DNA from: Sulfurimonas sp.
Lineage (GTDB): Bacteria; Campylobacterota; Campylobacteria; Campylobacterales; Sulfurimonadaceae
DNA length: 32,287 bases
NCBI GenBank assembly: GCA_013791885.1
Contig: VMSZ01000045.1
Coordinates: 1 to 32,287, forward strand
Direction of reading: 5' to 3'
Shown here: one piece after another, positions 21,752-27,838 of the stretch
Position numbering within the stretch: the stretch's first letter is position 1
Layout: every line of letters begins with the position of its first letter
The notes under the pieces: generated by a model
What the model was told of the DNA's origin: nothing
The model's input: the letters and a program-made list of their open reading frames with translations, nothing else
The model's database searches: none
Translations under genes and position numbers: made by a program

Positions 21752-21778
21752 ATTCATGAGTTATTTATACTCATGAAT
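21752..21778. terminator. Hairpin between the converging proA and SPOR-REC genes
   Basis: attcatgagt pairs perfectly over 10 bp with actcatgaat around loop tatttat. It follows the proA stop and covers the last codons and stop of the opposite gene. T-runs are short on both sides, so termination is likely but weak. Confidence 0.5.
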
Positions 21779-23410
21779 ACTTTGCAATAGTTTTTGTAGA
21801 AGTTCGCTGTATTGGTCTGCAAGCGTGAGATAACTTTTTTCTTCTGTATCTTTCAGTGCTTCTTTGAGCTCTTTGGCAACTGCGTTTAACTTATCTGCCC
21901 CAATATGGGAAGTAACTCCGATTAAATCTAATAAATATTTATCTGCCGCTACAAAATTGTTCTCATTTAAATACTCAAATATTTTTGTATCAGAATCCGC
22001 ATATGTCATTAGAAATTCGTTAAGAATCTCACGATAAAACTCTTCATCCCCTGAGCAGGTTGCCAAACCTTTTTCAAAGTTTAATTCAGAATCGCCACCC
22101 ATTCCAGCGGATGGGTTTATGTCTTTAGCATCTGTGTAAACGTAAAGTATATCATACAGAGCGTCTATGCGCAGAGGTTTTTCTAAATGTTCATCCATGC
22201 CTGCAGCTAACATTTTTTTGATATCAGAATCAGCAATATCACCGCTTAAAGCAATGATAGCTATATGATTGTATCTTGGATTTTCTCTAATGAATTTCGT
22301 TGCTTCAAAGCCATTCATAATCGGCATGTGCACATCCATAAAAATAATGCTAAAGTTGTGGTCATACTCAAGAATATCAAGGGCTTCTTTCCCATTATTT
22401 GCAACAACAACTTCAATCCCGCTGTCTCCGAGCAGTCCAATGATAACTTTTTGGTTGATGAGATTATCTTCAGCTATTAAAACTCTTGTTCCTGCGAATT
22501 CTTTGAAGTCTTGTTTTACTATTTTTCCATGGAGCCTTGGCGTTCTTTTTTTGAGGTCTATAGCTATATCCTGAAGCTCTTCATCTTCAGATTCTTCTAG
22601 TCCGAAGTCACCTTCTTCTTCTCCTTTAAGTTCAAAAAAACTGTTTTCATAAGTTTCGCTTTCTTGAGTATCTTCGATTTTTATCTCTTGGAGAGGATTG
22701 TTTTCTTTAGAGCCTTCTTGCGTGTTATTTAAATCTTTTTTTTGCGATTTTTTAAGAAAAAAGTAGAGTAATAGAAGGATTAAAAATGTTAAAGAAGCAA
22801 GCAGTATAGTTTGGAAATCCATAGAATCCACTTCTTTTTCAGCGATTTTTTCTTTCATTAAGGGCTTTTCTTCGACTAAAGGCTCTTCTTTTATTGGAAT
22901 TATTTCTTGCGTTTTTATTTCTGTTTCTGTTTGTAAACTGGTGTTTTGTTCCGCAATAAGTGGTTGAATAATAAGAGTAGAATTTTCTTCTGTGAGGGTA
23001 TTGTTGGTATCAGGGGCGTCTGGAACTGAAACTTCAGCAGTCACAGTTTCTTTGTTCTCAACAGGAAGTGCGGTTTGAACAGCTAAAGTCGGGCTTGCTT
23101 CTATTGCTGTGGACGGTAATTTTAAAGCATATGCATGCTTATATGTTTTTTTTATTTTTTTAAGCGCAGCAGCAAGAATTTCTTCGTCTGTTATTGGTTC
23201 TAGAGTAACAAGATAATAGCTTTCGCTTTTTTTATGATTGGCTGTGATGAAGTTTTTTTCAAAAAAATCTTTATCTTTTTCAAGAAAATTTTGCAGCTTT
23301 ATTTCTTCTGCAACAGCAGTCCGTTCAAGGGAATAAGCACCTACGATTATCTGGGAGTTTATGCCAAAAGCAAGAGTGAAAAGGAAGGGAATGATCCAAA
23401 AAACTTTCAT
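21761..23410 (-). CDS. SPOR-like/membrane/receiver/HPt-like protein
   Basis: 549 residues from the ATG at 23410 (GGGCTC seven bases upstream). The frame extends upstream to 23521 but that part does not look coding. A signal-like helix (1-18) leads to a SPOR-like region (about 20-97: I-I-V-G-A-Y-S, then Y-Y-L-V-T-L-E-P-I). An acidic Pro/Glu/Thr linker (about 100-190), one TM helix (about 195-218) and an acidic cytoplasmic linker follow. The receiver (about 310-430) is intact, with E-D pocket, phospho-Asp359 in F-M-D-V-H-M-P and E-K-P. The C-terminal region (about 445-549) resembles HPt, but in L-L-D-L-I-G-V-T-S-H-I-G-A the phospho-His position is Leu494. SPOR domains bind denuded septal glycan; the combined role is unknown. 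It is divergent from rsmH-ftsL. Confidence 0.75.
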   Translation of the reverse strand: MKVFWIIPFLFTLAFGINSQIIVGAYSLERTAVAEEIKLQNFLEKDKDFFEKNFITANHKKSESYYLVTLEPITDEEILAAALKKIKKTYKHAYALKLPSTAIEASPTLAVQTALPVENKETVTAEVSVPDAPDTNNTLTEENSTLIIQPLIAEQNTSLQTETEIKTQEIIPIKEEPLVEEKPLMKEKIAEKEVDSMDFQTILLASLTFLILLLLYFFLKKSQKKDLNNTQEGSKENNPLQEIKIEDTQESETYENSFFELKGEEEGDFGLEESEDEELQDIAIDLKKRTPRLHGKIVKQDFKEFAGTRVLIAEDNLINQKVIIGLLGDSGIEVVVANNGKEALDILEYDHNFSIIFMDVHMPIMNGFEATKFIRENPRYNHIAIIALSGDIADSDIKKMLAAGMDEHLEKPLRIDALYDILYVYTDAKDINPSAGMGGDSELNFEKGLATCSGDEEFYREILNEFLMTYADSDTKIFEYLNENNFVAADKYLLDLIGVTSHIGADKLNAVAKELKEALKDTEEKSYLTLADQYSELLQKLLQSIHEYK

Positions 23411-23439
23411 GTAAGAGCCCTTTTTTTTGTTTATGATAC

Positions 23440-23445
23440 AGTATA
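23440..23445 (-). promoter_or_regulatory. -10 box of the SPOR-REC gene
   Basis: The minus strand reads TATACT, 30 bp before the ATG at 23410, in the context tttatactgtatc. Confidence 0.5.
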
Positions 23446-23471
23446 AAGATTTAAAATAGACAAAATTAATG

Positions 23472-23477
23472 TATAAT
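23472..23477 (+). promoter_or_regulatory. -10 box of the rsmH operon
   Basis: TATAAT, 28 bp before the TTG start of rsmH. The rsmH and SPOR-REC promoters are back to back within 38 bp, so regulators of one could affect the other. Confidence 0.55.
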
Positions 23478-23505
23478 TTAATAAAAAAACGCGTAAAGGT
23501 CTTTT

Positions 23506-24432
23506 TTGCAAAATATTCCACATGTTCCGGTTTTGTATCGAGAAGTAGTTGATGCTTTTAGTTCTGTAGAAACAGGAATTGTCATCGATTGTACTATGGG
23601 TTATGGCGGTCACTCTTCATTGATACTCGAATCTAATCCAAATATCAAACTGATTGCCATAGATCAGGATCAGACTGCTATCGATTTTTCAACAAAAAGA
23701 CTTCAGCCATTTCAAGATAGGGTTGAGATTAGAAAAGGCAGATTCTCATCTGTTATAAAAGAGATACTTCAAGAGTATGACAATATCAATATTAAAGGTA
23801 TTCTGGCAGATATTGGCGTTTCCTCACTTCAGCTTGACCAAAAAGAGAGAGGTTTTTCTTTTGAGAGCGATAATCTTGATATGAGAATGGATAAAGAGTC
23901 TGGGCTGAGTGCTTCTGAAGTTGTAAATGAGTACTCAAGAGATGAACTCGAAAGAGTCCTTTTTGAGTACGGCGAGCTTAGAAACTACAAAAAAATTGCT
24001 TCGGTCATTATTTCGAACCGTCCTTTTCATTCAGCAAAAGAACTGAGTGAGGCTGTAAAACCGCATATGCCTCATGGCAAAAAGATCCATCCTGCTACAC
24101 TTTTGATGCAGGCAATCCGCATAGAAGTGAATGATGAGTTAGGCGAGTTAAAATCGCTTCTTGCAAGTATTGAAAATGCAAAACTTCAAGATACAAAAGT
24201 TGCCATCATCTCTTTTCACTCCCTTGAAGACAGAATTGTCAAACAGGAGTTTAGCAGATGGGCTAAGTCCTGCATATGCCCGCCAGAAGCGATGCGTTGC
24301 GTTTGTGGAAACAATCATGCGCTTGGAAAAATAATAAGTAAGAAGCCAATTACCGCACAAGATGATGAATTAAAAGAAAACGCAAGAAGCAGAAGTGCAA
24401 AAATGAGACTGTTCCAAACGGATATAAGATGA
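23506..24432 (+). CDS. rsmH: 16S rRNA (cytosine-1402-N4)-methyltransferase RsmH
   Basis: 308 residues. The first conserved stretch H-V-P-V-L follows directly after the TTG start at 23506, which has AAGG five bases upstream. The SAM motif D-C-T-M-G-Y-G-G-H-S is at 28-37. Other RsmH (MraW) marks are L-A-D-I-G-V-S-S-L-Q-L-D, D-M-R-M-D, Q-A-I-R-I-E-V-N, I-S-F-H-S-L-E-D-R-I-V-K and the C-x-C-P/C-x-C cysteine region. It methylates N4 of C1402 in the ribosomal P site. As in mra operons elsewhere, it is followed by an ftsL-like gene with a 4-bp overlap. Confidence 0.95.
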   Translation: MQNIPHVPVLYREVVDAFSSVETGIVIDCTMGYGGHSSLILESNPNIKLIAIDQDQTAIDFSTKRLQPFQDRVEIRKGRFSSVIKEILQEYDNINIKGILADIGVSSLQLDQKERGFSFESDNLDMRMDKESGLSASEVVNEYSRDELERVLFEYGELRNYKKIASVIISNRPFHSAKELSEAVKPHMPHGKKIHPATLLMQAIRIEVNDELGELKSLLASIENAKLQDTKVAIISFHSLEDRIVKQEFSRWAKSCICPPEAMRCVCGNNHALGKIISKKPITAQDDELKENARSRSAKMRLFQTDIR

Positions 24433-24707
24433 GTGAAAAAAGTGAACTTTTAGATGAGGTAAGGGTTGTTCTTGCCCCTAAAAAATATCTTGATTTTGCC
24501 TATTTTTTAAATGTTTTTTTAGTTCTGACACTTGTTTGTATCTTTGCGTTTCCGGGTATTTACATCCATCAGCAAATCTATTTTAAAAGCAGAGATATCT
24601 CCAAACTAAAATCTGAACATGATACGCTCAAAGAGGAAAACAGACTCATTCGGGCTTCTGTTGAGTCCATAAAATTTAAAAATCAAATACTTGATACACT
24701 GTTCTAG
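24429..24707 (+). CDS. ftsL: FtsL-like bitopic division protein
   Basis: 92 residues. A short cytoplasmic N-terminus (about 1-23) leads to a single TM helix (about 24-45) and a periplasmic leucine-zipper-like coiled coil (about 55-90: L-K-S-E-H-D-T-L-K-E-E-N). Sequence alone is too short and variable to name. The topology, size and place right after rsmH (ATGA overlap) are those of FtsL, which forms the FtsQLB division complex. It could be another small coiled-coil membrane protein, but position makes FtsL the best call. Confidence 0.72.
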   Translation: MSEKSELLDEVRVVLAPKKYLDFAYFLNVFLVLTLVCIFAFPGIYIHQQIYFKSRDISKLKSEHDTLKEENRLIRASVESIKFKNQILDTLF

Positions 24708-24715
24708 GGGTAGAA

Positions 24716-27700
24716 ATGATTCGCAAATTTATTGAGTTCTCGATAGATAAACCACTTTTAAATCATATACTATTAATTTTTATATTTGTTATGTCCATCT
24801 TCGCATATATCAATATTCCAAAAGAGATATTTCCTCCTTTTGCTATGGATAAAATCTCTGTAAACGGTGGTTATGTCGGAACATCTGCAGATATTCTTGA
24901 CAAAATGGTTGTTCAAAGCATAGAAGACGATATGCAAAACATAGATGAGCTGGATATAATAAAAACCAGTATAAAAAACGGCTCTTTTTCCATCCTTGTG
25001 GATATCAAACCGGGTTCTGACAATATCGCTGTTTTAAATGATGTCAAGGACATTCTAAGCAATGTAAAAAAAGATTTGCCTGCGGATATGTCTGAGCCGA
25101 TTGCCAAAATTCATACAAATAATTTTCCTCTTGTTCTTATAGCCCTTGCCGGAGATGTTCCAAAAGAAGAGTTGCTGCGCAGAGCAGATGAACTAAAATC
25201 ACAGCTGAGCAGTTTTAAAGATTTGAGTGAAGTTGTAATTCGCGGTGATGCGGATGAAGAACTTGTAATAACTATCAATGAAAAAAAGCTTTTGGCTTAC
25301 AATCTTGAACCGTCTCTCGCAATCAATGCACTCAAAAATATAAGTTCAATTTTCCCTATTGGAACCATTAAAGAGAGAGGTTCACATCTTTATATCTCTA
25401 CGTACAATGGAGAAAAAGATAAAGAGAGTGTTGAAGATACTATTGTAAATATAGGCCAAACACGCTTACGAATCGGTGATATAGCAGATATTTCTTTTGA
25501 ATTGAGTGATGAAAGTGAACTTTCACATTACAATGGAGTGAGAAATATCTCTGTGAATGTTTCCAAGTCGAAACAGGGTAATGCGATAGCTTTGGTTAAA
25601 GATATTCGTGAAGTGCTCAAACAAAATGAAATCAAGTACCCGCATTTAAAATACAATGTTTACACAGATACTTCTGTTTGGATTAAAAATCGTCTCAATA
25701 CAGTTTTTGCAAACATAGCTTTTGGACTTATGCTTGTTTTTTTATCTATGCTTATATTTATTAACCGTGGCATTGCGTTTGTCGTTGCTATCGGTATTCC
25801 GGTGAGTTTTATGATTGGGCTTGTTTTTAGTGAACTCAGAGGAGACAGCCTTAATATGCTCTCGCTGCTTGGTGCGCTTATTGCCCTGGGTATGCTTGTG
25901 GATGAGGCTATTGTCGTCGCTGAAAATATTTATAGACACCTGGAAGAGGGAATGGAGAGACGCGAAGCCGCAATACGAGGAGCAACGGAGATGTTCCCGG
26001 CGGTTTTGACTGCAACACTGACGACAGTTTTCGCATTTTTGCCTATGCTGATGCTTACGGGGGATATGGGAACTTTTATTAAAATAATTCCTATCATGAT
26101 AACCGTGCTGCTTTTGTCTTCTCTTTTTGAGGCATTTTTCTTTTTACCCTTACATGCGCATGACTTTCTAAAAGTTTCAAAAGACAGTAATGTAGCCAAT
26201 AAAATATGGGATAAACTCTATTTTTGGTATGACAACATCCTCCATTTTGTTTTCAGAACAAAAATTATTTCACTCATTCTTATGGTTGTGACTATTTTGG
26301 CGCTCACTTTTGTATTTGTTAAAAACTCAAAATTTCAGCTTTTTCCAGATTTTGATACAACCCAAATATATGTCTCCGGAAAAGTAAATATTAACAATGA
26401 ACTTGAAGATACGGAAGAGATAGTTACAAAAATAGAAAAAATACTTTTAGAAAAAATCTCTCAAGAAGATATCTCATCCGTTACTTCTGTTATAGGTTTT
26501 AGAATGGATGCTAAAAATATTGCGGAGACGGGAGATCATCTTTTTCATATTTTCATAGATTTGTATGAAAGAGCACCATCAAATGTTTTTGATACTTATA
26601 TAAGTCCATATCTCTCTCTTGAGTACAACGCAGATGCTTTAAAAAGAGAGCGTGATGCTAAAGACATTAGTAAAGATGTTGAGCAGCTTATGGAGCCGCT
26701 TAGAAAGCTTCAAACAAAAGATGGCCCGATGTTTGAAGAGCTTGTTGTTAAAGTTCCGGGAGCCGGCGTTATAGCTCATGATATAGAAGTAAGTCTAAGT
26801 GGAAAAAATGAAGATGAAATACTTGAAGGTATCAAGTATTTAAAAGATGCTTTGACATCGATTGTCGGAGTTTATAATGCAGCAGATGATGCAGATATAG
26901 GAGAAAAAGAACTTAAACTCCGAGTCAACGCATATGGGCAAGAACTTGGGTTTAATGAAGAGATAATCTCAGCGGGACTAAGATCTTACTACCTCAAGGG
27001 CGAATATGGAAAAATGTTCAACGATAATGGACTTGTCCGTATTAAAATAGAGAGTAAAGCGAATGAGAATATAGAATCCATACAAACTATGGAACTGCAA
27101 GTCCCTTCGTCGGACAGATATGTTGCATTAAAAGATATTTGTGACTTTGTAATGGTTCAAGGCTTTGTTGCACTTAATAAGGAAGATGGCGTTCGAATAC
27201 GCAGCGTTTTTGCCAGTATAGATAAAAAGATTATTACTTCTTCTGAAGTTATGAAACAGATGCAGCCATCTTTTGACAAACTTACCTCTGATGGGTATAA
27301 AGTTGAGGTTAAAGGTGAAGAGCAAGAGAACAATAAAAACAAAAAAGAGATGATGCAAGCCGGAGTTATTGCTCTGTTTTTAATCTTTATAACACTGGTA
27401 TGGCTTTTTGATTCCGCAGTTAAATCACTCATTGTAATAAGTACTATTCCTCTTGTGCTGCTTGGTGTTTTGGCTGGGCATATGCTCATGGGTATTAATC
27501 TGACAATGCCTGGTATGATAGGAGTTGTAGGACTTGCAGGTGTTGTTGTGAATGATGGGCTTATTATGGTGAGTTTCATTAAGAATGCTAAAGACAGTGA
27601 AACACTGATGAAACAGGCAAAAACAAGGCTCAGACCTATTTTACTAACCTCACTTACAACAGTACTTGGTCTCTCAACACTTATCTTTTTTGCTTCAGGA

Positions 27701-27838
27701 CAGGCGATGATACTTCAACCAATGGCCATCTCTTTAGGTTTTGGTATAGCATGGGCAACGGTTTTAAATCTTGTTTATGTACCACTTCTGTATGCAGTTA
27801 TCTATAAAATAAATCCACCAAAAAGAGTAAAAATATGA
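24716..27838 (+). CDS. RND-family efflux permease (HAE-1/AcrB-like)
   Basis: 1040 residues, the standard length. TM1 is about 12-30, with large periplasmic domains after TM1 and TM7 and clusters of TM helices at about 330-485 and 900-1030. TM4 has the conserved proton-relay Asp in G-M-L-V-D-E-A-I-V-V. TM10 has G-V-V-V-N-D-G-L-I-M in place of the AcrB Lys-containing motif, a pattern known from several proteobacterial RND subgroups. It exports small molecules driven by the proton gradient; the substrate is unknown. No periplasmic adaptor or outer-membrane channel gene is adjacent, which is odd for a tripartite pump. It follows ftsL by 8 bp (AGGGG before the ATG) and overlaps the hemoglobin gene by 4 bp. 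Confidence 0.9.
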   Translation: MIRKFIEFSIDKPLLNHILLIFIFVMSIFAYINIPKEIFPPFAMDKISVNGGYVGTSADILDKMVVQSIEDDMQNIDELDIIKTSIKNGSFSILVDIKPGSDNIAVLNDVKDILSNVKKDLPADMSEPIAKIHTNNFPLVLIALAGDVPKEELLRRADELKSQLSSFKDLSEVVIRGDADEELVITINEKKLLAYNLEPSLAINALKNISSIFPIGTIKERGSHLYISTYNGEKDKESVEDTIVNIGQTRLRIGDIADISFELSDESELSHYNGVRNISVNVSKSKQGNAIALVKDIREVLKQNEIKYPHLKYNVYTDTSVWIKNRLNTVFANIAFGLMLVFLSMLIFINRGIAFVVAIGIPVSFMIGLVFSELRGDSLNMLSLLGALIALGMLVDEAIVVAENIYRHLEEGMERREAAIRGATEMFPAVLTATLTTVFAFLPMLMLTGDMGTFIKIIPIMITVLLLSSLFEAFFFLPLHAHDFLKVSKDSNVANKIWDKLYFWYDNILHFVFRTKIISLILMVVTILALTFVFVKNSKFQLFPDFDTTQIYVSGKVNINNELEDTEEIVTKIEKILLEKISQEDISSVTSVIGFRMDAKNIAETGDHLFHIFIDLYERAPSNVFDTYISPYLSLEYNADALKRERDAKDISKDVEQLMEPLRKLQTKDGPMFEELVVKVPGAGVIAHDIEVSLSGKNEDEILEGIKYLKDALTSIVGVYNAADDADIGEKELKLRVNAYGQELGFNEEIISAGLRSYYLKGEYGKMFNDNGLVRIKIESKANENIESIQTMELQVPSSDRYVALKDICDFVMVQGFVALNKEDGVRIRSVFASIDKKIITSSEVMKQMQPSFDKLTSDGYKVEVKGEEQENNKNKKEMMQAGVIALFLIFITLVWLFDSAVKSLIVISTIPLVLLGVLAGHMLMGINLTMPGMIGVVGLAGVVVNDGLIMVSFIKNAKDSETLMKQAKTRLRPILLTSLTTVLGLSTLIFFASGQAMILQPMAISLGFGIAWATVLNLVYVPLLYAVIYKINPPKRVKI

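Follow-up and report, generated by a model that had tools for sequence, protein, structure and literature searches.

A membrane receiver protein with a SPOR-type fold outside and a His-less HPt-type end, encoded beside rsmH in Sulfurimonas

The locus and the domains of P0001

The window analysed in this work is a stretch of 32,287 nucleotides from Sulfurimonas sp. (contig G000:C37 of a 2.52 Mb assembly). It encodes a protein, P0001, that looks like a sensor kinase minus the kinase part, with a SPOR-type fold outside, a receiver inside and an HPt-type end that lacks its His. The features of the protein and its neighbours are collected in Table 1. A sequence-only reading of this DNA had described a SPOR-like region, a transmembrane (TM) helix, an intact receiver and an HPt-like domain without its His, and the follow-up confirms this architecture for the 549-residue protein. 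The supported start is the ATG at 23410, as the ortholog at L004 begins at the matching ATG. We dropped an alternative GTG start at 23521, which disagrees with that ortholog and would overlap rsmH, with its TTG start at 23506. The residue numbers of the earlier reading (Asp359, Leu494, Gly498 and His502) match the numbering from the ATG. A hydrophobic stretch like that of the TM helix was also seen, by eye, in the inspected orthologs with a complete N-terminus.

Table 1. Features of P0001 and the adjacent genes, in window coordinates
Feature	Position	Strand	Basis
P0001, entire reading frame (549 aa and stop codon)	21761..23410	-	start agrees with the L004 ortholog
Signal peptide, residues 1-17	23360..23410	-	judged by eye from the sequence
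Predicted SPOR-fold domain, residues 18-100, presumed periplasmic	23111..23359	-	model, structural matches, ortholog Pfam matches
Low-complexity linker, residues 101-197	22820..23110	-	sequence
Transmembrane helix, residues 201-219, basic residues after	22754..22810	-	sequence, by eye
Linker motif around EEGDFG, residues 263-270	22601..22624	-	pattern E[EQ]G.F
Receiver, residues 308-423, with Asp359 (codon 22334-22336) as phospho-acceptor	22142..22489	-	Pfam 1.9e-21
His-less HPt-type helical domain, residues 441-549, with Leu494 (codon 21929-21931) at the His site	21764..22090	-	hhalign, predicted helices
rsmH (name from the earlier reading), divergent neighbour	23506..24432	+	ORF listing
ftsL-like gene (name from the earlier reading), after rsmH	24429..24707	+	ORF listing

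The N-terminal domain had been called SPOR-like from its pattern only. Taken alone, the window's domain matches the Pfam SPOR family (PF05036) with an E-value of 0.1 and 13.4 bits, below the cut-off of 21, and a SPOR scan of its own genome reported three other loci and not that of P0001. Across the orthologs, 9 of 11 N-domains (the window's included) match SPOR at E-values up to 1, the best at 2.8e-5. AlphaFold models, built from two sequences, reach a pLDDT of 93.7 for the best and 93.0, 91.4, 82.7 and 65.9 for the other four, and the model shows the strand and helix order of SPOR domains (the beta-alpha-beta-beta-alpha-beta RNP-type fold). The first three structural matches of the model are RlpA 6i05 (Z 10.0, rmsd 1.9, 71 residues aligned), RlpA 6i09 (Z 9.9, rmsd 2.1, 72 aligned) and CwlC 1x60 (Z 8.6, rmsd 1.9, 73 aligned). 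The fourth is a non-SPOR chain, 6ozd, at Z 7.8 and formally tied with CwlC, and the sixth is DedD (6ztg, Z 7.0). With Foldseek the top match is CwlC at 3.9e-3, followed by designed ferredoxin folds, with nothing below 0.001. FtsN and DamX are further SPOR-domain proteins; neither is among the matches listed for the N-domain by Foldseek or the Z-score comparison. A search of PDB sequences with the N-domain profile gave a single match, to an unrelated protein (E 0.79). Compared with 14 true SPOR domains of the same bacterial family, chosen from more than 30 matches with L214, L215 and L217 left out, the ortholog profile scored 25.8 (probability 46%, E 2e-4), while the best of 30 column shuffles reached 19.7. 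Together, the ortholog Pfam matches, the confident model and the first three structural matches carry the case that the N-domain has a SPOR fold, which bears out the earlier call.

The N-domain thus resembles the SPOR domains of RlpA, CwlC and DedD in fold, with weak sequence kinship. It differs from known SPOR domains in an additional helix that follows the first in the model, in the lack of the glycan-binding Gln (see below) and in its attachment to a phosphoreceiver. We know of no receiver in MzrA. For the MzrA structure 4pwu, comparison with the N-domain gives Z 6.5, within the range that the comparison tool calls common, so kinship with this modulator of EnvZ/OmpR two-component signalling, as the available text of PMC2727453 presents it, is unsupported.

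The receiver is intact, as the earlier reading had it: the Pfam family PF00072 is matched at 1.9e-21, and the five key residues are kept in 72/72 other family sequences, a count that leaves out the window and L005. The C-terminal domain is more divergent, with a median pairwise identity between orthologs of 41% vs 69% for the receiver, and the Pfam scan of P0001 did not call HPt (PF01627). A profile of the domain nevertheless matches eight His-bearing HPts in hhalign (98.2%, E 3.3e-14). The match around the site is gap-free and aligns Leu494 on the phospho-His, which confirms an alignment previously made by eye. The predicted helices also fit an HPt; a structure comparison of the receiver and C-domain together was filled by receivers. 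In the 73 family sequences readable at the site, the window included and the truncated row L119 excluded, the position is Leu in 70, Ile in two and His in one (L081). The usual Lys beside the phospho-site is not kept, and neighbouring residues have changed too.

Could His502 be the real phospho-site, displaced by a slip in the alignment? We reject this, given the gap-free match and the residues found at position 502: Asn in 69 of 73 sequences, His in three (the window and its nearest kin) and Ser in one. Homologs with a proper HPt His would have undercut the earlier proposal. L081 is the single one within the family; outside it the related kinase L156 keeps the His. The loss of the HPt His therefore looks real and derived.

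Distribution and genomic context

Matches at 1e-30, kinases included, occur in 82/100 genomes of the genus. By our own count from match positions and frame lengths, with larger frames set aside as kinases, the kinase-less family is present in 73 of the 100 (the window genome included, and G020 and G053 as gene pieces); G033 holds an additional fragment of a family gene. Only 10 of these 73 genomes show the SPOR domain; none is seen in 60, and the gene is cut at contig ends in three (L075, L091 and L121). The domain cannot therefore be the core of the function. A search for the same domain order across Campylobacterota had been proposed; close relatives share the inner part of the protein, but the outer domain belongs to a minority. 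At L116 and L117 a similar signal peptide is kept with no SPOR domain, which favours loss of the domain over gain.

Beyond the genus, 36 genomes in a class sample of 298 match the receiver and C-domain at 1e-30. Strong, ortholog-sized matches are confined to the window's own bacterial family (20 genomes), with weaker matches outside it of 395, 392 and 504 aa (G155, G331 and G222). The first of these, L188 in G155, combines a TM-like stretch with a receiver and an HPt-like end that lacks the His; in the tree described below it falls with HisKA-less kinases, on a long branch.

The position beside rsmH is conserved. Of the 68 loci whose upstream flank is 300 bases or longer, 65 have a divergent rsmH no more than 300 bases away; the window is left out of this count, L004 and L005 are included, and six loci without upstream flank are set aside. 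By comparison, a convergent proA lies no more than 150 bases away in 15/52 loci with enough downstream sequence. As for the three exceptions, a divergent rsmH lies about 1 kb away at L083, and no rsmH was seen at L116 and L117. It is also divergent at six further loci of the genus (L164, L168, L169, L170, L172 and L178) and at L179, from another genus; the flanks of L177, L181, L182 and L183 (genera g4 and g6), each shorter than 1.5 kb, contain no rsmH. Of the genus genomes, 18 gave no match; rsmH was sought in 9 of these and found in seven; the P0001 family is not beside it in six of those, and at L199 the contig ends there. The divergent arrangement with rsmH-ftsL proposed from the window alone is thus a conserved linkage. 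The back-to-back promoters proposed with it were not borne out, since the scanned region holds five promoter-like sites vs 6.1 expected, no more than chance. One of these sites, sigma-70-like (10/12) at 23450-23477, faces rsmH. Terminator-like sites number three vs 1.1 expected.

The SPOR-type domain and the division septum

The linkage to rsmH-ftsL raises the possibility that the SPOR domain binds to denuded glycan at the septum and relays the state of division to the receiver. The location fits such a septal sensor: the structural matches support the SPOR fold, and rsmH is divergent in 65/68 testable loci, in 6/6 further genus loci and at L179, in another genus of the family. However, several results argue against it. 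According to the available part of PMC6895207, Q270 of RlpA is the Gln that binds denuded glycan. In the alignment of 11 ortholog N-domains this column is Ile or Val in all 11, so that the conserved glycan Gln is missing throughout. Furthermore, no SPOR domain is seen in 60/73 genomes, no rsmH is found in the available flanks of L177, L181, L182 and L183, and the same domain is carried by secretin-like and CpsB-like proteins (named by eye). We consider this reading unlikely, and with the glycan Gln absent and most orthologs showing no SPOR domain we reject it as the default. For the earlier suggestion that wall or division state is linked to a phosphorelay, the SPOR fold, the receiver and the rsmH linkage all stand, while the functional step drawn from them is weakened by the missing Gln and by the presence of the domain in 10/73 genomes.

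A variant of this idea deserves mention. In the same source, as far as it is available, the basic patch for denuded glycan is built by different residues in different SPOR domains (PMC6895207). A Gln two residues upstream of the Q270 column is kept in 10 of the 11 ortholog N-domains, and this near-invariant Gln of beta-1, with a near-invariant Lys of beta-2, is the proposed variant glycan site. It is conceivable, although we regard it as a long shot, that the member linked to rsmH senses the condition of the dividing wall via this site and reports to the divisome through its phospho-receiver, in a lineage that repurposed SPOR-type domains as outer halves. If true, this would be a direct link from wall to phosphorelay in a Campylobacterota lineage, with SPOR-type domains as the outer half of the relay.

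The wider occurrence of the domain is instructive. Its profile (A7) matches 21/298 class genomes at 0.001 and 37/100 genus genomes at 1e-4, and the SPOR-like N-domain is a general module of the lineage and no mark of division. We selected 13 further loci from the profile matches in class and genus genomes; by eye, these hold kinases or pieces of kinases, tandem or single SPOR-TM proteins, secretin-like and CpsB-like proteins, and others. For example, the domain is joined to a CpsB-like phosphatase at L267:800-2173 and to a secretin-like protein at L268:825-3005. At L162:976-4937 a stand-alone protein of 291 aa with a SPOR-like domain lies directly upstream of an RND-type pump, which resembles the window gene at 24716-27838 (all by eye). 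At L260:898-2817 a SPOR-like domain is followed by a TM-like stretch and a kinase-like part; no receiver is seen by eye, and the HPt-like end carries Val in place of the phospho-His. The genome of this protein, G066, also holds L081, the ortholog with His at the site.

Kinase-bearing relatives and a possible receiver switch

The same N-domain occurs on full hybrid kinases. Ortholog and kinase N-domain profiles match in hhalign at 99.4% (E 2.5e-21), the second profile having 12 rows, of which eight are kinases and four stand-alone SPOR-TM proteins; against the true SPOR domains this kinase profile overlaps over 29 columns only, out of register. The window's own genome encodes such a paralog, P0002, with Pfam matches to HisKA (6.1e-19), HATPase (4.5e-26) and a receiver (1.6e-22), an HPt match of 0.22 that falls below the cut-off, and no SPOR match at E-values up to 1. 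In the region L120:3100-11727 it is flanked by a guaA-like gene on one side and by purD-like and lptD-like genes on the other, all named by eye.

A SHELR motif is found in the N-domain hybrid kinases P0002, L136, L138, L139, L146, L153, L155, L156 and L270, and by eye L157 has HHELK in its place. Their HPt His site is Met in each of the eight kinases read from the window's bacterial family (P0002, L136, L138, L139, L146, L153, L155 and L157) and Arg in the SPOR kinase L270. L156, from another bacterial family, has an HPt with its His over the Pfam cut-off (1.8e-7) and a SPOR match of 0.003, below the cut-off. A second set of kinases, of about 700 aa, has no HisKA motif; the single one tested, L140, matches HATPase at 0.0021, below the cut-off.

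In a quick tree of 71 rows the kinase-less family is one clade (SH-aLRT 97) that joins the HisKA-less group (91), with the SPOR kinases outside. The SPOR-labelled orthologs are scattered within the clade (six changes), with L091 so labelled from its long linker, its N-terminus being cut off. The tree omits L119, L121, L172, L186 and about two-thirds of the short orthologs. Since it was made without bootstrap, is rooted on the single row L156, itself on a long branch, and brings other long branches together, the direction of change is partly assumed. With this assumption, the sequences suggest a graded series: from L156 with its HPt His, through SPOR kinases with Met and kinases without HisKA, to the kinase-less family. 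SPOR kinases co-occur with short-form orthologs in G001, G009 and G019, and so the long form and a SPOR kinase need not pair.

How does P0001 compare with known systems? Its receiver and C-domain are colinear with the BarA model (4.7e-28, residues 296-527), and the NCBIfam LetS model matches residues 306-549 at 3.2e-22. Unlike BarA/LetS-type hybrid kinases, P0001 has no HisKA, HATPase or phospho-His and scores far below the curated cut-offs; Pfam finds no HisKA or HATPase in P0001, and the NCBIfam kinase-model matches shown start at residue 296. RcsD keeps a working HPt, whereas P0001 has an intact receiver and an HPt without its His. The two are alike in other respects: RcsD-type degenerate phosphorelay proteins (RcsD is treated in PMC3842833) also lie in the membrane, and their transmitter portion has no His yet stays in the relay. 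In the literature that we searched, mostly papers outside subscription, a SPOR domain joined to a histidine kinase or receiver is not described. The architecture had been put forward as without precedent; this stands as far as that search goes, but the N-domain is also found on complete hybrid kinases in this lineage. The single domains are known already, and what is new is their combination and history.

The most probable of the readings, and one we lean towards, is that P0001 descends from a SPOR-domain hybrid histidine kinase whose kinase part was lost, and works as a membrane-tethered receiver switch. A reduced hybrid kinase is the likeliest origin because the same N-domain is found on full hybrid kinases and the related L156 kinase keeps its HPt His. 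The kinase would have been lost, the receiver kept and the HPt turned into a non-phosphorylatable partner domain. With the SPOR domain predicted to be periplasmic and the receiver cytoplasmic, Asp359 would be phosphorylated by another protein, a histidine kinase that may be the SPOR hybrid kinase P0002. The pseudo-HPt may be a fixed docking partner of the receiver, since it cannot accept phosphate at the usual site, and phosphorylation might open or close a site at the membrane where another protein binds. The outer domain of the long forms would add place or signal; in most orthologs it would have been lost, leaving only the tethered switch. One point against this reading is L081, which has His at the HPt site (1/73).

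The same features permit two other roles, both of which we judge improbable. The tethered receiver could be a phosphate sink: it would take phosphate away from a hybrid kinase and weaken the kinase's signal, and would itself have no output. This agrees with the intact receiver (key residues 72/72), the lack of a Pfam-called effector domain in P0001 and of a phospho-His in the C-domain, and the presence of P0002 in the same genome, but a pure sink needs neither the TM segment nor the conserved C-domain, and both are kept. Alternatively, plant pseudo-HPts bind response regulators and, by analogy, the HPt-type domain, retained without its His, might bind a free response regulator and hold it at the membrane. 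This too is doubtful, as the residues beside the site are altered, the usual Lys is not kept and no partner is known.

P0001 is of interest on several counts. It is a membrane receiver, conserved beside rsmH-ftsL, for which the literature searched describes no function, and in none of that literature is a SPOR-type fold described as the outer domain of signalling proteins. Furthermore, the series from a hybrid kinase with a live HPt, via a dead HPt and a degenerate kinase, to a kinase-less receiver makes the roles of pseudo-HPts and pseudo-kinases directly testable.

Finally, an acidic motif, E[EQ]G.F, lies between the TM helix and the receiver in 24/74 family members (the window and 23 others) vs 0.3 expected by letter shuffling, for a pattern picked after inspection of the data and in members that are related. 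This part of the linker is a candidate binding motif.
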